NCBI RefSeq assembly: GCF_018398335.1
Contig: NZ_JAHBRX010000001.1
Span: 1,364,001-1,428,000 of the forward strand
DNA from: Chelatococcus sp. HY11
GTDB taxonomy: Bacteria > Pseudomonadota > Alphaproteobacteria > Rhizobiales > Beijerinckiaceae
DNA length: 64,000 nucleotides
Reading direction: 5' to 3'
Shown here: positions 5,784 through 13,203 of the stretch, in pieces
Position numbering within the stretch: the first letter of the stretch is position 1
Layout of the letters: each line of letters starts with the position of its first letter
Notes under the pieces: model-generated
What the model was told of the DNA's origin: nothing
The model's database searches: none
What the model saw: the letters and a program-made list of their open reading frames with translations, nothing else
Translations under genes and position numbers: made by a program

Positions 5784-7391
5784 TCAGGCCGGCCGGCTGA
5801 CGTCCTCGAAGGTCAGCCCGAATTTCAGCAGGTATTTCCGCAGCCGGTCCGCGTCGTTGCCGGTGGATTTCTGCAGGCGTGATACGGCGAACAGCTGTCG
5901 TCCGGCGGCGCTGATCGATGAATGGCCGCGACAGGCCGCGATGACGGCCGCGAGTTGCGCCCGGTCGAACAGATCAAGCCCGGCGGCGCGCTCGGCCCCG
6001 AGAACGCCGATCAGCAAGTCCTCAGGCGTCCCACTGTCACTCGCGGAGGACCACAGCCACCTCAGGCGACCGATCTCTTGGCGCACCGTCTCCTCATTGA
6101 TCCGTGCCTGCGGCGCGAGCGTCGCCATGCGGGTGACCGATGCCGAGAGATCACGAAAATTGGCGCGCCAGGCCGCTTCCGGCGCCATGGCGAAGGTAAG
6201 GTAAAGCGCGCGCGCTTCCTTGTTGAAGGTGGCGTTCAGGCCTTCCCGTTCGCTGAAGCGCCGCAACTCGAAATCGAGATTGGGCTCGATGTCCTCACGG
6301 CGATCCTTGAGTGCCGGCAGTTGGAAGGTCCAGAGATTGAGCCGGGCGAACAGGTCCTCACGAAAGCGTCCCTCCCGGACGCTGACGGAGAGATCCCGGT
6401 TGGTGCCCGCGAGCAGCTGGAAATCGGAGGCGGTGTCGCTGTCGGCGCCGACCGGCAGGAAGCGCTTCTCCTCGATGGCGCGCAGGCACATGGCCTGTTC
6501 ATCAAGGCCTAGCTCGCCGATCTCGTCGAGGAACAGCACGCCCTTGTCGGCGGCTTTCATCAGCCCCGCGCGCGCCGTCTGCGCGCCAGTGAAGGCGCCC
6601 TTGACGTGACCGAACAGGGTCGACATCGCCTGGTCGCCCCTGAGCGTCGCACAATTGACCTCGACGAAGGCGCCGGAGACCTGTCGCTGGGCCTGTTTCA
6701 ACTCGTAGATGCGCCTGGCGAGCTGCGACTTGCCCGCCCCCGTCGGCCCGGTCAGGAGCACCGGCGCGCGCGAGCGGATCGCCACCTTCTCGATCTGGTC
6801 GATCATCTCATTGAAGGTGGCATTACGGGTCGCGATGCCGGACTTGAGGAACGATGTCGCTTCCGCGCGCTCCGCCGCGAAGCGCGTGGCGATCGCGTCG
6901 TAACGCGACAGATCGAGATCGATGATCGAATGCGTCCCGGAATAATCGCCGGGATCCTCGGTCTTCCTGGGCGGCGAGAGCTGCACCAGCCGCCCCGGGA
7001 TGTAACGCGCCTCGGTCAGGAGGAACCAGCAGATCTGCGCGACATGGGTGCCGGTGGTGATATTGACCAGATAGTCCTCGCGCTCGGGGTCGAAGCTGTA
7101 ACCATGCGCGAAGTCGCGCATGCTTGTGTAGACCTCGCTGAAATCCCATGGATCGCGCAAGGTGATCTCATGGAGCTTGACCTCAGTCGCCGGGGAAATC
7201 TGTTCGATATCGCGGGTAACCTGAATCGCGAGCGGCAGATGCTTGGCACCGTGGATGAGTTCAAGCCTGTCGATGAACAGGCCGGGTTGCTGGCAAAGCG
7301 CGACGGTTGGCCGCCAGCGCTTCCAGCGGTCCTTGCGCCCGCCGCTATCGAGTGTCGTGCCCAGAACGCTGATCGCGATGCGACGGCGCAT
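5784..7391 (-). CDS. rtcR: RtcR, sigma-54-dependent activator of RNA repair
   Basis: Encodes 535 residues. The N-terminal domain (about 1-180) begins RRRIAISVLGTTLD and contains YLVNITTGTHVAQICWFLL, a CARF-type ligand domain. The AAA+ domain has Walker A GPTGAGKS (215-222), the sigma-54 contact loop GAFTGA (265-270) and Walker B GVLFLDE (284-290). The C-terminal end holds a Fis-like helix-turn-helix. Family knowledge: RtcR senses RNA ends from damaged tRNA and drives the rtc operon through sigma-54 RNA polymerase. It is divergent from rsr-Y RNA-rtcB, whose promoter shows a -24/-12 element. Length is typical for the family. Confidence 0.95.
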   Translation of the reverse strand: MRRRIAISVLGTTLDSGGRKDRWKRWRPTVALCQQPGLFIDRLELIHGAKHLPLAIQVTRDIEQISPATEVKLHEITLRDPWDFSEVYTSMRDFAHGYSFDPEREDYLVNITTGTHVAQICWFLLTEARYIPGRLVQLSPPRKTEDPGDYSGTHSIIDLDLSRYDAIATRFAAERAEATSFLKSGIATRNATFNEMIDQIEKVAIRSRAPVLLTGPTGAGKSQLARRIYELKQAQRQVSGAFVEVNCATLRGDQAMSTLFGHVKGAFTGAQTARAGLMKAADKGVLFLDEIGELGLDEQAMCLRAIEEKRFLPVGADSDTASDFQLLAGTNRDLSVSVREGRFREDLFARLNLWTFQLPALKDRREDIEPNLDFELRRFSEREGLNATFNKEARALYLTFAMAPEAAWRANFRDLSASVTRMATLAPQARINEETVRQEIGRLRWLWSSASDSGTPEDLLIGVLGAERAAGLDLFDRAQLAAVIAACRGHSSISAAGRQLFAVSRLQKSTGNDADRLRKYLLKFGLTFEDVSRPA

Positions 7392-7551: not shown

Positions 7552-7567
7552 TGGCACGCCGCTTGAA
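7552..7567 (+). promoter_or_regulatory. Sigma-54 (-24/-12) promoter of the rsr-Y RNA-rtcB operon
   Basis: TGGCACG at 7552-7558, four bases, then TTGAA at 7563-7567: a near-perfect match to the RpoN consensus TGGCACG-N4-TTGC(A/T) with correct GG-to-GA spacing. Transcription should begin near 7578, giving a leader of about 20 bases before the ATG at 7600. It agrees with a divergent RtcR. Confidence 0.9.
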
Positions 7568-7599: not shown

Positions 7600-9159
7600 A
7601 TGGCAAACAAATCCGTGTTTGCGACGATCGTAGGAAAACTCATTCCGCAGACGGACTGTGTGAACCATGAGGGCGCCAGGGCTTATGCCCTGACGCCCCA
7701 CCAGGCTCTCGCGCAGCTGGCGGCAACGGGCACGTTCAACACGACCTTCTACGCCGAGCCGCGCGAGCAACTCGACGAGGTTCTGAAGCTGGCCTGGCAG
7801 GTCGAGCCGGAATTCGTCGCCAAGACCGCCGTCTATGCCTTCGAGCGGGGGTTCATGAAGGACATGCCGGCGCTGCTTCTGGCAGCGCTATCGATGATGC
7901 CGGGACCGGAATTTTCACGGGCCTTCCCGCGTATCGTGAGGAACGGCAAGATGGTGCGCAACTTCGTGCAGGTCATGCGCTCCGGCGTGACCGGCCGCAA
8001 GTCGCTCGGAAGCCGGCCGAAGCGCCTGGTGCAGGGGTGGTTGGAGCAGGCTGACGACATCGAGATCATGCGCGCCGCCGTCGGCAATGATCCGTCGCTG
8101 GCTGACATCATCAAGATGGTTCACCCGAAGCCGTCATCGGCTTCGCGTGAGGCGCTTTATGGCTATCTCATCGGCAGGCCGTATGACGTGCTGGCGGTGC
8201 CGGACGTGGTCAAGGCCTTCGAGGCCTTCAAGCGCGATCCGTCCCTGCCGGTGCCGCCGGTGCCGTTCCAGATGCTCACCGCGATGCCGCTGTCCAAGGC
8301 GCATTGGGTGGAGATCGCGGACAAGGCCGGCTGGCAGATGCTGCGCCAGAACCTCAACACCTTCGCCCGCCATGGCGTGTTCGAAGCGGAGGGGTTCACG
8401 GAGCGGCTCGCCGGACGGCTCGCCGATGCGGACGAGGTCCGACGCGCCAGGGTCTTCCCCTACCAGCTCATGGTGGCCTTCACCATGGTGGAGACAGGCG
8501 TGCCGGTCGCGATCAAGGACGCGTTGCAGGATGCGATGGAAATCGCGCTGGCCAACGTGCCGGAGATCGAGGGCAATGTCGTGGTCTGCCCGGATGTGTC
8601 CGGCTCCATGCGCTCGCCCGCGACGGGTTATCGCCAGGGCGCGACCTCGACGGTGCGCTGCGTCGATGTCGCCACCCTCGTGGCCGCGGCGCTGCTGCGG
8701 GCCAACCGGACTGCGCGTGTGCTGCCGTTCGAGCAGGATGTGGTCGCCATCGACCTCAACCCGCGCGACACGGTGATGACAAACGCGGCAAAACTGGCGG
8801 CGATCGGCGGTGGCGGAACGAATTGCTCCGCGCCGCTCCAAAGGCTGGCGGACGAGAAGGCGAAGGTCGATCTCGTGGTGTTCGTGTCGGACAACCAATC
8901 GTGGGTAGACGGGGTGTCCCATAGCCACCACGGCACGGCGACCATGCAGGCGTGGAACAGGATCAAGGTCCGGAACCCGGCTGCAAAGCTCGTCTGCATC
9001 GATATCCAGCCTAACACGACGACCCAGGCGAAGGGCCGCGCGGACATCCTGAATGTCGGCGGCTTCTCGGATCAGGTTTTCACGCTGGTCGCCGCGATGG
9101 CGAGGAGCGGACAAGACAGGGATCATTGGGTGAAGACGATCGACGCCATAGAACTCTGA
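7600..9159 (+). CDS. rsr: TROVE-domain Ro60 orthologue (Rsr)
   Basis: Encodes 519 residues, the usual size of Ro proteins. The N-terminal half (about 15-310) is the helical-repeat TROVE ring that holds Y RNA and misfolded RNA ends, opening with QTDCVNHEGARAYALTPHQA. The C-terminal half is a von Willebrand A-like domain with an intact MIDAS motif DVSGSM starting at Asp332. The ATG at 7600 follows AGAAGGAAC and fits the predicted transcript start; a GTG at 7579 would lie on the first transcribed base and is unlikely. It is the first gene of the operon, followed directly by five Y RNA-like units and rtcB. Confidence 0.95.
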   Translation: MANKSVFATIVGKLIPQTDCVNHEGARAYALTPHQALAQLAATGTFNTTFYAEPREQLDEVLKLAWQVEPEFVAKTAVYAFERGFMKDMPALLLAALSMMPGPEFSRAFPRIVRNGKMVRNFVQVMRSGVTGRKSLGSRPKRLVQGWLEQADDIEIMRAAVGNDPSLADIIKMVHPKPSSASREALYGYLIGRPYDVLAVPDVVKAFEAFKRDPSLPVPPVPFQMLTAMPLSKAHWVEIADKAGWQMLRQNLNTFARHGVFEAEGFTERLAGRLADADEVRRARVFPYQLMVAFTMVETGVPVAIKDALQDAMEIALANVPEIEGNVVVCPDVSGSMRSPATGYRQGATSTVRCVDVATLVAAALLRANRTARVLPFEQDVVAIDLNPRDTVMTNAAKLAAIGGGGTNCSAPLQRLADEKAKVDLVVFVSDNQSWVDGVSHSHHGTATMQAWNRIKVRNPAAKLVCIDIQPNTTTQAKGRADILNVGGFSDQVFTLVAAMARSGQDRDHWVKTIDAIEL

Positions 9160-9165
9160 CAATAA

Positions 9166-9189
9166 GCCCCGGCGGTCCGCCGCCGGGGC
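9166..9189 (+). other. Intercistronic GC hairpin between rsr and the Y RNA array
   Basis: GCCCCGGCGG at 9166-9175 pairs perfectly with CCGCCGGGGC at 9180-9189 around the loop TCCG. No T tract follows, so it does not look like a full terminator. It could protect the rsr mRNA 3' end, attenuate read-through, or mark a processing point ahead of the RNAs. Confidence 0.65.
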
Positions 9190-9212: not shown

Positions 9213-9367
9213 GGCATGACGAATGCCGATGGAACTACAGGCTGTACCCCTCCAGGTCGCGGGTTCGAATCCCGCCGGGTCCACCAACTGCGGGCTCGTA
9301 GCTCAGTGGTCAGAGCGGGTTCCCGCTTTACGGTGGGAGAGGTTTCATCATCCCTTGTCGTCATGCC
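9213..9367 (+). ncRNA. Y RNA-like unit 1 with permuted tRNA module
   Basis: GGCATGACG (9213-9221) pairs perfectly with CGTCATGCC (9359-9367). The helix carries the Ro-binding signature GACGAATG (9218-9225) opposite CTTGTC (9354-9359). An inner helix pairs GATGGAACT (9228-9236) with GGTTTCATC (9341-9349). Within lies a circularly permuted tRNA: T arm GCGGG-TTCGAAT-CCCGC (9259-9275), acceptor 3' strand CGGGTCC then ACCA (9276-9286), a short linker, acceptor 5' strand GGGCTCG (9292-9298, 7 bp with two wobbles), TA, and D arm GCTC...GAGC (9301-9316). An extra hairpin at 9321-9338 follows the D arm. This order is that of YrlA-type bacterial Y RNAs. Confidence 0.87.
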
Positions 9368-9399
9368 TTCTTCATGAACAACGACGATCCGAGGCAACA

Positions 9400-9519
9400 G
9401 CCATGACGAATGCAGGCGAAACTACATCATGTCGCGGGTTCGATCCCCGTCGGGCCTCCTCTTCGGCCCGTAGCTCAGTGGTAGAGCAGAAGCGTTTCGC
9501 CGACCCTTGTCGTCATGGC
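9400..9519 (+). ncRNA. Y RNA-like unit 2 with permuted tRNA module
   Basis: GCCATGACG (9400-9408) pairs perfectly with CGTCATGGC (9511-9519); the signature GACGAATG is at 9405-9412 opposite CTTGTC at 9506-9511. The inner helix GGCGAAAC (9415-9422) with GTTTCGCC (9494-9501) is perfect. The tRNA module is the most regular of the five: T arm GCGGG-TTCGATC-CCCGT (9434-9450), acceptor CGGGCC (9451-9456) with GGCCCG (9465-9470), TA, then D arm GCTC-AGTGGTA-GAGC (9473-9487). The anticodon arm is replaced by the Ro-binding helices. At about 120 nt it is the shortest unit. Confidence 0.9.
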
Positions 9520-9570
9520 CTCAACCGGGCCACCTATAGACAGTAGACGGATAGAATAGAGACCTTTGAA

Positions 9571-9699
9571 GAACGGCGAATGCCGGATGAAACTACAGCA
9601 GCATAGTCGGGATGCTCCGTGAGGTTCGACTCCTCACCTTGCATGCGCTGTCTGGCACCAGCGGGACATCCCAAGTTTCATCCATCCTCGTCGCCGTTC
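9571..9699 (+). ncRNA. Y RNA-like unit 3, divergent internal module
   Basis: GAACGGCG (9571-9578) pairs perfectly with CGCCGTTC (9692-9699); the signature is GGCGAATG (9575-9582). The inner helix GGATGAAACT (9585-9594) with AGTTTCATCC (9674-9683) is 10 bp and perfect. A T-arm-like hairpin remains, GTGAGG-TTCGACT-CCTCAC (9619-9637). The D arm is not recognisable; instead there is a CGCTG/CAGCG hairpin (9646-9663) and a GGGATG/CATCCC helix (9609-9614 with 9667-9672). The paired covariation in the helices argues for function despite loss of tRNA likeness. Confidence 0.82.
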
Positions 9700-9713
9700 C
9701 TCGAAGACGAATT

Positions 9714-9856
9714 CCGCTGGCGAATGCCCGCAGGACTACAGGTAGAGCATCCGCCTCGCAGGGGCGGAAGGTCGGGTGTTCAAGTCATCCCTTCCTGTCC
9801 TCCCGGACTGGATGTAGCTCAGGAAACAAGTCTTGCGCCACGCTTGTCGCCAGCGG
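9714..9856 (+). ncRNA. Y RNA-like unit 4, tRNA permuted at the D loop
   Basis: CCGCTGGCG (9714-9722) pairs perfectly with CGCCAGCGG (9848-9856); the signature GGCGAATG (9719-9726) faces CTTGTC (9843-9848). The inner helix is GCAGGACT (9730-9737) with AGTCTTGC (9829-9836). The insert reads GGTA-GAGC (second half of a D arm, 9741-9748), an anticodon-like arm CCGCC/GGCGG with a 7-base loop (9751-9767), a T arm GGGTG-TTCAAGT-CATCC (9774-9790), acceptor 3' strand, a TCCC turn, acceptor 5' strand (9805-9814), TA and GCTC (9817-9820), which pairs back to GAGC. The acceptor helix has T-T mismatches. So the Ro module sits in the D loop. Confidence 0.82.
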
Positions 9857-9860
9857 CCGA

Positions 9861-10017
9861 TCAGGACGAATGCAGGCGCTACTCCATGGAAGACGCGATC
9901 CGGCATAACCGGATGCCGCGAGGCGTGAAGGTTCGACCCCTTCCCGTGTCAAGGGCTGTCAGAGGCCCCACGATGCGGTGGCGAAAAAGACGTTGCGCTC
10001 ACGACTTGTCGTCCTGA
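9861..10017 (+). ncRNA. Y RNA-like unit 5
   Basis: TCAGGACG (9861-9868) pairs perfectly with CGTCCTGA (10010-10017); GACGAATG (9865-9872) faces CTTGTC (10005-10010). The inner helix is weaker: GGCGC-T-AC (9875-9882) with GTTGCGCT (9992-9999), one mismatch and one wobble. A T-arm hairpin GAAGG-TTCGACC-CCTTC is at 9927-9943, and an ATCCGG/CCGGAT hairpin at 9898-9914 resembles an anticodon arm. I could not fold a convincing D arm. It ends 43 bases before the rtcB start codon. Confidence 0.8.
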
Positions 10018-10060: not shown

Positions 10061-11458
10061 ATGACCGAGATTTTGAGTGGACAGGACCTGATCGACGCCG
10101 GCATGCGGCAGGGCAAGTGGTTCGGCAAGGCGCTCGCCGCCGGCAATGCCGTGCTGGAAAGCGGCGGCTCCTTTGCTACCGCCTTGGAAGCCGCGCGCCA
10201 GTTCGAGCCACCGCCCGCAACCCCTTTGCGCCCGACCGGCACGGTGCCGTTCCACATCAATATCGATGCGGAGAACGAACTCGAGCAGGCCAATGTCGCG
10301 GCGGTCACGCGGAGCATGACCGAGCTGATGCGCACGCCGGTCGTGCGCGCGGGCGCCGTCATGCCCGATGCCTGCCCGGCGGGGCCCATGGGGACGATCC
10401 CGGTCGGCGGCATCGCGGTGTCCGAGGCTATTCATCCCGGCATGCACTCGGCCGACATCTGCTGCTCCATGGCGATCTCCGTCTATCCCGGCGTCGCGCC
10501 GCAGGCTCTGCTCGACACGGTGCAGGCAGTGACGCATTTCGGGCCGGGTGGACGCCCGCGCGGCCAGCAGTTCCGGCCGGAGCCGGCGCTGATGGAGCGC
10601 TTCGCCACGAACGCGCTGCTCGCGGACATCACCAGCGCGGCGATCGAGCATTTCGGCACCCAGGGCGACGGCAACCATTTCGCCTTCGTCGGAACCATCA
10701 AGTCCACCGGCGAGACGGCGCTGGTGACGCATCACGGCTCGCGGTCGCCGGGCGCTCGCCTCTACGGCAAGGGCATGAAGATCGCCAATGCCGTGCGCCT
10801 GGTGACGTCGCCGGAAACCCATCGCGACAACGCCTGGATTCCAGCCGACACCGAGGAGGGCGACCGCTATTGGGAGGCGCTTCAGACCATCCGGGCCTGG
10901 ACGAAGGCGAACCATATGCTGATCCACGACGCGGCCGCCGAACGGCTGTCCGCGAAGGTCGCCGATCGCTTCTGGAACGAGCATAACTTCGTCTTCCGGC
11001 GCTCGGACGGGCTGTTCTACCACGGCAAGGGCGCGACGCCGGCCTTCTCGGGCTGGGCCGACGACGCCACGGACCTGACGCTCATTCCGCTCAACATGGC
11101 GGAGCCGGTGCTGATCGTGCGTGGCAAGGATGCGCCGCATGGCCTTGGCTTCTCACCGCATGGGGCCGGCCGCAACTTCTCGCGCAGCCAGCACAAGCGC
11201 CTCCAGGCCGGGCGGACGGACGCGGAGATCTTCGCGGCGGAAACGCAGGGAATCGACGCGCGCTTCTTCTCGGGCGTGACCGATATCTCGGAGCTGCCGA
11301 GCGCCTACAAGAATGCCGCGTCGGTGCGCCGGCAGATCGAGCACTACGGCCTCGCCGAGATCGTCGACGAGGTCATCCCCTACGGCTGCATCATGGCCGG
11401 CGACTGGGCGGCCAACGCCCCATGGCGCAAGAAGAAGCAGGCCCGCGCTGCGGCGTGA
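10061..11458 (+). CDS. rtcB: RtcB-family 3'-phosphate/5'-OH RNA ligase
   Basis: Encodes 465 residues from the ATG at 10061, longer than the roughly 408-residue E. coli protein because of an N-terminal extension. Family knowledge: RtcB joins 2',3'-cyclic phosphate or 3'-phosphate RNA ends to 5'-OH ends using GTP and Mn2+. Metal-site residues are visible: SADICC (Asp132, Cys134/135), NHF (His206), HHGSR (His224/225) and the guanylylated-histidine motif HGAGR (His367). Several motifs depart from the canonical form (DICC for DIGC, GDGNHF for GTGNHF or GGGNHF), marking a divergent subfamily. A GTG at 10040 falls inside a hairpin arm and has no ribosome site. Last gene of the rsr operon. Confidence 0.92.
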   Translation: MTEILSGQDLIDAGMRQGKWFGKALAAGNAVLESGGSFATALEAARQFEPPPATPLRPTGTVPFHINIDAENELEQANVAAVTRSMTELMRTPVVRAGAVMPDACPAGPMGTIPVGGIAVSEAIHPGMHSADICCSMAISVYPGVAPQALLDTVQAVTHFGPGGRPRGQQFRPEPALMERFATNALLADITSAAIEHFGTQGDGNHFAFVGTIKSTGETALVTHHGSRSPGARLYGKGMKIANAVRLVTSPETHRDNAWIPADTEEGDRYWEALQTIRAWTKANHMLIHDAAAERLSAKVADRFWNEHNFVFRRSDGLFYHGKGATPAFSGWADDATDLTLIPLNMAEPVLIVRGKDAPHGLGFSPHGAGRNFSRSQHKRLQAGRTDAEIFAAETQGIDARFFSGVTDISELPSAYKNAASVRRQIEHYGLAEIVDEVIPYGCIMAGDWAANAPWRKKKQARAAA

Positions 11459-11554: not shown

Positions 11555-12388
11555 TCAGACGAAACCGGCGGCTTGCGCGATAAGGATGCCCCCTGCTCCG
11601 GCCGTGACGGCGCCGATCGCTTCCGGCATGCGCAGACCAGCGGGTGCGAGACGCTCCGTGGTGATGGCGAGCGTCACGAGGATCATCGCGCGAAGGTCCA
11701 TCACACCGAGGACCAGAAGAACAGCGACAAGACCCGAGCAGCTGATGCAGCAGACGAGACCGAGCCGGAGCCCGTAGCCGGCGGCTGCGAACCTGTTCGC
11801 CAATTGTCCTATCCGACACGGCCCCTTTCGGCAGCAAGCCAGAAGACGGGCCTTCCATCGCGTGAACTGGAACGCGCCGGCCGTCAGAAGGCAGGCCCCC
11901 ATGAGCATCGGCATGGCGCGGGCGAGATCCGGACGCCGCATCGCGAGGGCCGCGAGTTCAGAGCCGATCGCAAAGATGAACAGACCCGACAGCGTCCAGA
12001 CGCCGAGATAGACGACACCGGCGAGCATGGCCAGCGAACCGGGCCACGACGCGCCGGACAGGCCGGCCGCCTGGTGGTAGCGCCCCAGCGCGGGCAGTAA
12101 CGACGGTACCATCATCGCGACCATCATGACGCTCCAGAGGCCGACGAAGCTCGCGGCGGCCTCCCTCCAGGTCTGCCCGCACATCGGCAACCATGCCGGC
12201 GACATCATCCAGCCACCGGGCATCGGTATCCCGTCCATGGAGGCCATCGACGCGCATCCAAGGATCGTCGCCGTCGTGCTGGCAGCGAAGATCAACGCTG
12301 CCGTACCCAGGAAAACTGGCTGACAACCTTGCCGGCATGCAGTTGCGCCGCGATGTGCCCGTTCAGCCGTGATACTGATCGCGCGCAT
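11555..12388 (-). CDS. DUF2182 integral membrane protein, putative metal-binding
   Basis: Encodes about 277 residues with six or so hydrophobic helices. It matches the DUF2182 pattern as I remember it: WSVMMVAMMVPSLLP in an early helix, TRWKARLLACCRKGP in a loop, and a late GLVCCISCSGLVAVLL helix with a Cys cluster. The Met- and Cys-rich segments suggest binding of a soft metal, but no function is established. A GTG at 12409 would extend it by seven residues and overlap the upstream DUF899 stop, so the two genes are probably translationally coupled. Function unknown. Confidence 0.8.
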   Translation of the reverse strand: MRAISITAERAHRGATACRQGCQPVFLGTAALIFAASTTATILGCASMASMDGIPMPGGWMMSPAWLPMCGQTWREAAASFVGLWSVMMVAMMVPSLLPALGRYHQAAGLSGASWPGSLAMLAGVVYLGVWTLSGLFIFAIGSELAALAMRRPDLARAMPMLMGACLLTAGAFQFTRWKARLLACCRKGPCRIGQLANRFAAAGYGLRLGLVCCISCSGLVAVLLVLGVMDLRAMILVTLAITTERLAPAGLRMPEAIGAVTAGAGGILIAQAAGFV

Positions 12389-12396
12389 GGCCGGGC

Positions 12397-13203
12397 TCAG
12401 GCACAACACGACGCACCCATGCTGCTCGCGGGTTGCCCGTATTCATCGTGGCGACGGAACCAGACGCCCGTTTCGTTGCGCCCCTTTGGCGCGCGATCGA
12501 GCCACTGATACATGCCCCACAGGCCATCCAGCCCTCGCGCATAGGTGGAGTAGCTGTGGTAGACAACGCCATCCTCCCGCACGAAGGCGCTCATGCCCGG
12601 CCTTTCGCGCTGGTACGTGGCCGTGTCCGTTCCGCAGGTCGCCGCCATATGCGCCTCCGCGCCGGCTCCACCGCCCTCTTGCCCGGGCCGCCAGACGAAT
12701 GCCTTCTCGGGCCGGTAGTTGTAGGAGATGCCACCCTCGCGTTGCTGGTCTTCGGAGAACCAGACACCGAAATCGGCATTGAAGTCACTCGCGAGAGACG
12801 ATGCCCAGGGGAAAGTCCAGCCCATGCGCCGCTTGTAAGCCTGCAATGTCGCGAACGGAGCGCGGGACACGGCCCATAGCATCACGTCATGATTGGCGAG
12901 ATGCGGGACAAAACCATTGAAGCCGTCCGCGATCGCCGAACAGGACGGACATCCCGCCGTATAGTCGGTCCCGAACATGAAATGATAGACGAGAAGTTGC
13001 GAGCGTCCGCGGAAGAGGTCGGCAAGCGATGCATCGCCTTCGCTCGTCTCGAAGCGGTAGGTCTTGTCAACGCGCACCCACGGCAGACGCTGGCGCCGCT
13101 GCGCCAGCGCGTCGCTCAACCGCGTGACCTCCTTCTCCGCGGCAAGCAGATCAAGCCGCGCCGCTTGCCACTCTTCCCGCGTTCCGATGCTATGTTGCGT
13201 CAT
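12397..13203 (-). CDS. DUF899 family protein (thioredoxin-like fold)
   Basis: Encodes 268 residues. The ATG at 13203 is preceded by GGGAG at good spacing; an upstream start at 13236 has no such site. Family signatures are visible: LPWVRVDKTYRFETSEG, LLVYHFMFGTDYTAGCPSCS with a CPSC pair near residue 90, and the C-terminal GLDGLWGMYQWLDRAPKGR. The thioredoxin-like core with C-x-x-C suggests redox chemistry, but the biochemical role is not established. The C-terminus ends in ASCCA. It forms an operon with DUF2182 and is divergent from a helix-turn-helix gene. Confidence 0.85.
   Translation of the reverse strand: MTQHSIGTREEWQAARLDLLAAEKEVTRLSDALAQRRQRLPWVRVDKTYRFETSEGDASLADLFRGRSQLLVYHFMFGTDYTAGCPSCSAIADGFNGFVPHLANHDVMLWAVSRAPFATLQAYKRRMGWTFPWASSLASDFNADFGVWFSEDQQREGGISYNYRPEKAFVWRPGQEGGGAGAEAHMAATCGTDTATYQRERPGMSAFVREDGVVYHSYSTYARGLDGLWGMYQWLDRAPKGRNETGVWFRRHDEYGQPASSMGASCCA

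Follow-up and report, generated by a model that had tools for sequence, protein, structure and literature searches.

Bacterial Y RNAs are understood as a tRNA mimic on a stick, and are not known to use more than one geometry. Chen, in 2014, reportedly found that over 250 species have Y RNAs close to Ro60, with at least one per species carrying a tRNA-like domain. We describe here a tandem array of five predicted Y RNA units in Chelatococcus sp. HY11, lying between rsr, which encodes the Ro60 orthologue Rsr, and rtcB, which encodes an RNA ligase. The array sits in a 64,000-nucleotide stretch (contig NZ_JAHBRX010000001.1, positions 1,364,001 to 1,428,000; hereafter the window) of a 6.95 Mb genome, and it includes heads that appear to attach to the stick in a second geometry, through the D-loop of a tRNA body.

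Circular permutation is known from permuted tRNA genes and from the two-piece transfer-messenger RNA (tmRNA) of alphaproteobacteria, where a linker connects the acceptor 3' end with the 5' end; the host genome has an alpha tmRNA. The array differs from these in that the permutation has the Ro handle at its opposite end, placed at the anticodon arm (class A, units 1 and 2) or in the D-loop (class D, unit 4, and, probably, class F, unit 5), and in that class D has no CCA end. Among the open-licence matches listed, a scope outside which the founding YrlA papers lie, no title or abstract opening dealt with permuted Y RNAs.

The Rfam family YrlA (RF02553) shares with units 1 and 2 both the handle and the order T-arm, acceptor, D-arm. 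Units 3–5 also have its handle, but unit 4 and, probably, unit 5 carry it in the D-loop and present a free anticodon-like arm, and unit 3 lacks an acceptor stem. According to a review (PMC8394870), DusA and TruB modify YrlA, which also binds PNPase, and in the Deinococcus complex of Rsr, Y RNA and PNPase (RYPER) the Y RNA tethers the Ro ring to the enzyme (PMC8394870 and PMC8058203); the window array differs in its four head kinds. PMC7790460 and PMC9879122 describe the Salmonella rsr-yrlBA-rtcBA operon, which is like the window locus in its divergent rtcR, its sigma-54 control (predicted for the window) and its order of rsr, Y RNAs and rtcB; the first of these papers adds that RtcR controls the operon and that tRNA halves with cyclic phosphate ends bind RtcR and switch it on. 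Salmonella has two Y RNAs, whereas the window has five with four head kinds, and its operon includes rtcA, whereas the next annotated open reading frame (ORF) after rtcB in the window (11555-12409) runs in the other direction and does not encode RtcA.

The array and its common handle

A strict scan of both strands of the window, requiring CGAA-N-G, an outer helix and an inner helix, retrieves exactly five units on the forward strand and none on the reverse strand (Table 1), as compared to one match in total over both strands of ten first-order Markov copies. The outer helices are unbroken in all five units, at 9–10 bp when CGA/TCG is counted. The 5' strand has the motif G-N-CGAATG in every unit; the 3' strand is CTTGTCG in four units and CTCGTCG in unit 3; ACTACA comes next in units 1–4, with CTACTCCA at the same place in unit 5. 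The original prediction, made from the sequence without database searches, had proposed five consecutive Y RNA units with unit-specific paired outer helices, and had listed G-N-C-GAATG, CTTGTC (CTCGTC in unit 3) and ACTACA (all but the last unit) as their motifs; the scan recovers the units, and the motifs are present as described. The bacterial Y RNA signature, an outer helix of GNCGAA and UUGUC near a Ro60 gene, is found in 5/5 units, with UCGUC in unit 3. The array can thus be described, at the level of sequence and predicted structure, as one common handle (GNCGAATG / CTTGTC outer helix, inner helix and mostly ACTACA) bearing four kinds of head.

Compared to dinucleotide shuffles, predicted fold energy is clearly low for units 2 (z -3.84) and 3 (z -4.73) and moderately low for units 1 (z -2.05) and 4 (z -2.62). 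Only unit 2 among the five passes the Rfam YrlA cut-off of 69 bits. With ARAGORN, no ordinary tRNA is predicted anywhere in the window, and none of 297 Y units in native order is called a tRNA.

Table 1. Units of the Y RNA array, parts of the unit 4 head, and neighbouring features (window coordinates)
Feature	Position	Strand	Evidence
Unit 1, class A	9213..9367	+	strict scan; Rfam YrlA 48.9 bits
Unit 2, class A	9400..9519	+	strict scan; Rfam RF02553 83.4 bits
Unit 3, class C	9571..9699	+	strict scan; Rfam YrlA 23.5 bits
Unit 4, class D	9714..9856	+	strict scan; R1 72.9 bits; R2 111.8 bits; Rfam YrlA 20.0 bits
Unit 5, class F	9861..10017	+	strict scan; without Rfam YrlA listing
Unit 4 tRNA-like domain, permuted order	9739..9822	+	alignment, pair counts, tertiary nucleotides
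Unit 4 D-loop 3' part, then D-stem strand GAGC	9745-9748 (GAGC)	+	
Unit 4 anticodon-like hairpin	9750-9768	+	
Unit 4 AGGTC (positions 44-48)	9769-9773	+	
Unit 4 T-arm	9774-9790	+	
Unit 4 acceptor 3' strand, loop, 5' strand	9791-9814	+	
Unit 4 U8	9815	+	
Unit 4 D-stem strand GCTC	9817-9820	+	
Unit 4 A14 G15	9821-9822	+	
rtcR (divergent), sigma-54 activator containing the RtcR sensor domain	5784..7391	-	Pfam RtcR 267 bits, Sigma54_activat 168 bits
Sigma-54-like promoter TGGCACG-N4-TTGA, 33 bases 5' of rsr ATG	7552..7566	+	pattern match
rsr (Ro60 orthologue)	7600..9159	+	Pfam vWA_Ro60 64.5 bits, TROVE 30 bits
Hairpin, G+C-rich, 9-bp, without T run, between rsr and unit 1	9167..9188	+	direct sequence reading
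rtcB, RNA ligase	10061..11458	+	Pfam RtcB 117 bits

Class D, a tRNA body permuted at the D-loop

For comparison with relatives, rsr loci were collected with an alignment of six Rsr proteins, 80 from titled genome records and 59 viral; because the 80 are the best 80 of at least 575, this sample leans to close relatives. Regions of seven further genomes were added, two of which were duplicates and were dropped (L017 and L018, equal to L056 and L072; L and G numbers are our own labels). Searches used two covariance models (CMs), R1 for the class D domain only and R2 for the full unit.

The head of unit 4 is predicted to be a complete tRNA body, circularly permuted, with the handle inserted in the D-loop. 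It reads in the order handle, GG-TAGAGC, hairpin, AGGTC, T-arm, acceptor hairpin, T-AGCTCAG, handle. Class D heads in general are modelled with a D-stem, an anticodon-like arm, positions 44-48, a T-arm and an acceptor stem, with short closing loops and without CCA, and this structure is well supported by alignment. From a plain MAFFT alignment of 41 units, and with no other input, RNAalifold recovers the D-loop-permuted cloverleaf. In 40 domains (of 42, leaving aside the near-duplicates L032 and L060), 91.6% of cells are paired, as compared to 71.5 when shuffled, and covariation is 0.528 against 0.164; changes on both sides of a pair affect 7/7 pairs of the anticodon-like stem, 3/5 of the T-stem, 6/7 of the acceptor and none of the D-stem. 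A second set comprised 66 full units of 73 matches, excluding the near-duplicates L060, L029:8383 and L032:8451, as well as L057, L051:8302 (not parsed), and L087 and L097 (unclear ends). Here 94.7% of cells are paired (against 79.4 after shuffling and 37-55 after sliding), and changes on both sides affect 30 of the 37 pairs, a count reached in 0/500 shuffles (mean 18.0); such pairs include 7/7 in the outer helix and 6/8 in the inner helix. In 14/66 of these units the D-stem shows an A-U to C-G change. It is GAAC/GTTC in L209, L210 and L211, which were fetched by R2 and lie outside the 66-unit alignment, and R1 added units beyond those found by letter patterns, such as a subclass with D-stem GCGC/GCGC. 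Even the Ro motif co-changes among 72 parsed units, from CGA/TCG to CAA/TTG in 8, CGG/CCG in 2 and TGA/TCA in 1.

The nucleotides that make tertiary contacts are nearly invariant among the 66 units (U8 65, A14 66, G15 65, G18 61, G19 65, A21 65, G46 66, C48 65, T54 64, T55 65, C56 63, A58 63), although A9, A14 and the D-stem were partly selected, because the letter patterns of the first class D collection cover part of the D-arm (GAGC, AGC-C/T-CA). The working ends of the tRNA are not kept. N-CCA occurs in 3/66 units and a 7-base anticodon loop in 1/66, as compared to 30/45 host tRNAs under the same arm folding; with arms folded singly, 4-base loops close the anticodon side in 47/66 and the acceptor side in 43/66. 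We considered class D as a functional tRNA and ruled this out on its capped loops and missing CCA; the capping of both working ends argues against a role in translation.

We also rotated class D units in silico, cutting in the acceptor loop at the best-pairing place, joining at the D-loop and adding ACCA. ARAGORN then called 16/37 a tRNA without an added join base, the window unit included, and 13-14/37 with one to three join bases, as compared to 0/37 in native order and 0/740 dinucleotide shuffles (one-T version), although the cut was tuned for best pairing in the real units and not in the shuffles. This tuning and the partial selection of the D-arm both weigh against the class D reading, as do the 21/37 rotated units that ARAGORN missed, the two T-T mismatches in the acceptor of unit 4 itself, and the origin of the later class D units from a CM that favours the structure.

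Spread of class D and its tie to Ro60

Class D is found in 53/82 tallied loci; R1 gave 73 matches in 53/86 sources. In the host genome, the R1 score of unit 4 is followed by that of a tRNA junction at 39.8 bits. Among 385 genomes of the class, 29/29 newly fetched R1 loci overlap ARAGORN tRNAs, with scores of up to 67.7 bits, and none of the 29 has CGAATG upstream; as candidates for class D outside rsr loci they were all rejected as tandem tRNA gene junctions. Because such junctions match equally well, R1 alone proves nothing, which tells against any case for class D made from that model.

The full-unit model separates genomes by Ro60. Among 297 genomes of the order, R2 matches of at least 75 bits occur in 13/32 with a Ro60 domain and in 0/265 without one; the cut-offs (44 bits for R1, 75 bits for R2) were chosen after the scores had been seen, a further point to be held against the reading, although the R2 cut lies in a gap between 76.8 and 62.9 bits. 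The matches at 60.7-62.9 bits (L212, L213, L214) were read as other Y RNA classes. Weaker R2 matches (38-63 bits) also occur in genomes lacking Ro60, again to the disadvantage of a strict linkage. Because several matched genomes gave training sequences, this result is a linkage test more than a discovery; three R2-positive genomes, G709, G713 and G614, were not recognised among the training loci. In 398 genomes of the phylum, R2 retrieved G190, which belongs to a different order within the same class, at 94.6 bits. Weak R1 candidates near rsr came from a Bacteroidota locus (L085, 50 bits) and from Verrucomicrobia-type metagenome-assembled genomes (L097 and L087, 48 and 44 bits).

Among viral contigs, R1 matches near rsr in L160, L147, L123 and L135 were considered as phage class D and rejected, since they look like tandem tRNAs; one match was inspected by eye in each of these best-scoring four loci, 4 of at least 91 matches. 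There are many R1 matches on the rsr-bearing viral contigs L104, L135, L140 and L123, and the one inspected in each of L123 and L135 looks like ordinary tandem tRNAs. Five CGAATG units precede the rsr relative of one viral contig (L103:3106-3966), so that phage Y arrays may exist.

The remaining heads: classes A, C and F

Units 1 and 2, alone among the five, have heads in the order T-arm, acceptor, D-arm, and their Y stem stands where a tRNA has its anticodon arm. We assign them to the known YrlA head, a predicted tRNA in which the handle substitutes for that arm. In unit 1 the T-arm is followed by the acceptor 3' strand (9276-9282), A-CCA (9283-9286), a linker, the acceptor 5' strand (9292-9298) and the D-arm, and the acceptor forms 7/7 pairs before its A-CCA. 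N-CCA directly follows the 7-base acceptor strand in 52/89 parsed class A units (of 103 tallied), a count that is approximate because a few units were wrongly parsed; the linkers behind it run from 1 to 94 bases. In three class A units (L025:7606-7831, L028:7600-7843 and L032:7599-7841) the acceptor loops measure 96-98 bases and start with GCCA or GCCC, as if sequence had been inserted there.

Unit 3 has a Y stem, an extension helix GGGATG/CATCCC, a T-arm, a short linker and a hairpin with loop TCTGGCAC, with no acceptor stem. Its class, C, occurs in 45/82 loci. In 36 aligned units the extension helix, of 4-12 bp, varies in step, with a mean of 8.1 pairs as compared to 6.3 with partners shuffled (maximum 7.0 in 200), and the outer and inner helices show compensatory changes. 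Compensatory change in relatives had been named with the original prediction as a check on the helices, and it is seen for the classes of both unit 3 and unit 4. Beyond the extension helix, class C units have the T-arm, the short linker and then a hairpin that hardly varies and whose loop contains GG. One reading is that this second hairpin is D-arm-like; its near invariance tells against that reading, which rests on a single hairpin able to show little covariation. The TCTGGCA hairpin of unit 3 was also considered as tmRNA mimicry and rejected, as the host tmRNA (L254) has no such loop where read.

Unit 5 is likely a tRNA-Leu-like body with a variable arm, permuted at the D-loop like unit 4. 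Its class, F, was found in the window, in seven Mesorhizobium or Mesorhizobium-like loci and in a relative of the same genus. When rotated, unit 5 is called a tRNA by ARAGORN, with 7/7 acceptor pairs (GATGCGG/CCGTGTC), and its four nearest among 45 distinct host tRNAs are tRNA-Leu, the best being Leu(CAG) with 16 bases in a row shared; the fifth host tRNA-Leu falls outside the best five matches. We hold class F to be likely and not proved, because ARAGORN called 3/8 rotated units a tRNA, missing 5/8, and because the acceptor is weak in the nearest relative, where unit 5 has 5/7 pairs as read by eye. The relative's rotated unit was not called a tRNA, but that rotation used the wrong acceptor strand. 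The fold energy of unit 5 is ordinary as well (z -1.30, with 23/200 shuffles as good).

Array size and other heads among relatives

Units lie downstream of rsr in 82/86 sources, the window included, with 1 to 7 units per locus: 1 in 7 loci, 2 in 11, 3 in 14, 4 in 18, 5 in 19, 6 in 12 and 7 in 1. This tally used a relaxed detector, which fires in shuffled sequence below about 16 points, and kept units of at least 13 points downstream of rsr only; L088, L095, L098 and L101 were dropped entirely, and L016 was tallied with one unit though five are present. Three to six units are present in 63/82 loci and five or more in 32/82, so multi-unit arrays are ordinary in this group, and the suggestion that five Y RNAs in one operon would be unusual does not hold. 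Unit classes were set by motif and CM, with classes T, K and ? being rough. At its cut-off, the Rfam YrlA model gave 8 matches over ten loci. Those same loci were tallied with 17 class D, 9 class C and 4 class F units, and none of these units was matched.

Several further heads were noticed. A Y head GGGGCCGCATCGCGCCAT..ATGGAATGCGTGCGG without T-arm, unlike tRNA, occurs in L049:8184-8280 and ten more loci, mostly Rhizobium; it is strongly conserved, in 11 loci by pattern and 13 in one clustering. Another conserved head, with CCGTTATCGG or similar, is found in 7 loci by pattern (e.g. L043:7609-7718, L044:7684-7797, L055:7682-7788 and L046:8256-8364). Some short units lack a D-arm and carry a T-arm plus an acceptor-like hairpin, much as in a tRNA minihelix (L031:8321-8415 and others); the rough class T (60 units) includes these and other kinds. 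Finally, L042, labelled Mycobacterium sp. KBS0706, has a Y array and an rsr (70% to the query, as in L041) that closely resemble those of Inquilinus limosus (L041), and is probably a mislabelled genome.

Operon setting

The placement of the array between rsr and rtcB, also claimed originally, is borne out by Pfam matches to both genes. A divergent rtcR, a downstream rtcB and a sigma-54-like promoter are all present at the window locus, and because gene order and promoter layout match, we assign it to the RNA repair operons of the Salmonella kind. No rtcA was found among the five window ORFs put to Pfam, and the remaining genome was not searched for it. The closest fetched loci by Rsr come from Mesorhizobium and other Rhizobiales. 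Among related rsr loci, RtcR is encoded on the opposite strand in 74/80, and in 67/80 a co-directional RtcB gene follows within 2.5 kb. A sigma-54-like pattern, loose and drawn with the window site in view, lies upstream of rsr in 37/78 related loci, as compared to 0/80 control slices inside rsr.

Explanations for the array

Taken together, the handle, the head classes, the tRNA core and the linkage to Ro60 and RtcB emerge from sequence comparison, and the tRNA mimicry first suggested for the units holds in the form of YrlA heads and D-loop-permuted tRNA bodies. The explanation we favour, and consider somewhat better supported than doubtful, is that units with a common handle and several head classes, D-loop-permuted bodies among them, act as Ro60 adaptors showing different parts of a tRNA. 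RtcR would sense tRNA damage and, acting through sigma-54, induce rsr, the Y array and rtcB. By their common handle the Y RNAs would dock on the Rsr ring, and their heads would offer it the acceptor with CCA and the elbow from the anticodon side, the elbow only, or a capped body held by the D-loop. They would be neither charged, translated nor cut at the anticodon. As interchangeable adaptors they would, while tRNAs decay or are repaired, deliver tRNA-binding enzymes to the ring in two or more orientations, PNPase, TruB and DusA being examples of enzymes that bind or act on known YrlA. The proposal assumes that the units give discrete RNAs, an assumption that weakens it. That one ring might use different adaptors fits the diversity of heads. 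A tentative extension, to which we give rather less than even credence, would make the arrays a kit of tRNA parts kept ready for the Ro60 ring, each head recruiting a different tRNA-handling enzyme or class of damaged tRNA. Classes A and C would show the tRNA from its anticodon side and classes D and F from its D-loop/elbow side, as a class I or class II body, and with CCA kept (A) or both working ends capped (D).

Other explanations differ in how much of this they would displace. RNAs of the unit 1 type might be processed like two-piece tmRNA, with RNase P and 3' trimming removing the acceptor loop to leave a nicked RNA whose true CCA end could be charged; this is compatible with the adaptor explanation, and the retention of N-CCA in class A despite the range of its linkers, against its rarity in class D, points that way, as does a weak, sub-threshold similarity of unit 1 to the permuted tmRNA of Rfam (26.6 bits against a cut-off of 47), but related sequences may simply retain the CCA as a relic of their origin, and we judge such processing somewhat unlikely. 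Less likely still, the units could be decoys for tRNA-cutting toxins or tRNA-binding phage proteins, shielding tRNAs during repair by RtcB. Anticodon nucleases would have no obvious target, because the class D loop is capped, with a 7-base loop in a single unit, and canonical YrlA has no anticodon arm; the case for a decoy would then lie with elbow- or core-binding proteins.

It is very improbable that units 1 and 2 alone work as Y RNAs while units 3–5 are decaying duplicates or captured tRNA-gene fragments. The class D domain does have the layout of a segment of tandem tRNA genes that starts in one D-loop and stops in the following one, and may have originated from such a piece, and the ordinary fold energy of unit 5 and the weak acceptor of its counterpart in the nearest relative would suit decay. 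For C and D, decay is unlikely because these classes are conserved, across 45 and 53 of the 82 loci, and class D shows two-sided changes in 30 of 37 pairs and nearly invariant tertiary nucleotides; the case for F is thinner. We give least credence to the hairpins being mRNA elements that tune the rsr:rtcB ratio through stability or processing, with no role in trans: the units do lie between two co-directional genes, and a further hairpin follows rsr, but a stability element would need neither tRNA tertiary nucleotides, nor a Ro signature, nor a presence tied to Ro60.

The present Rfam family overlooks many units of these arrays. The second geometry, with the stick leaving from the D-loop, the body intact and both working ends capped, suggests that the ring needs the tRNA core itself, shown from more than one side. 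The question of what Y heads recruit becomes testable, as heads can be swapped behind a constant handle, and the array offers a ready RNA set for structure work. If the kit extension is true, one ring would become several machines when tRNAs are broken.
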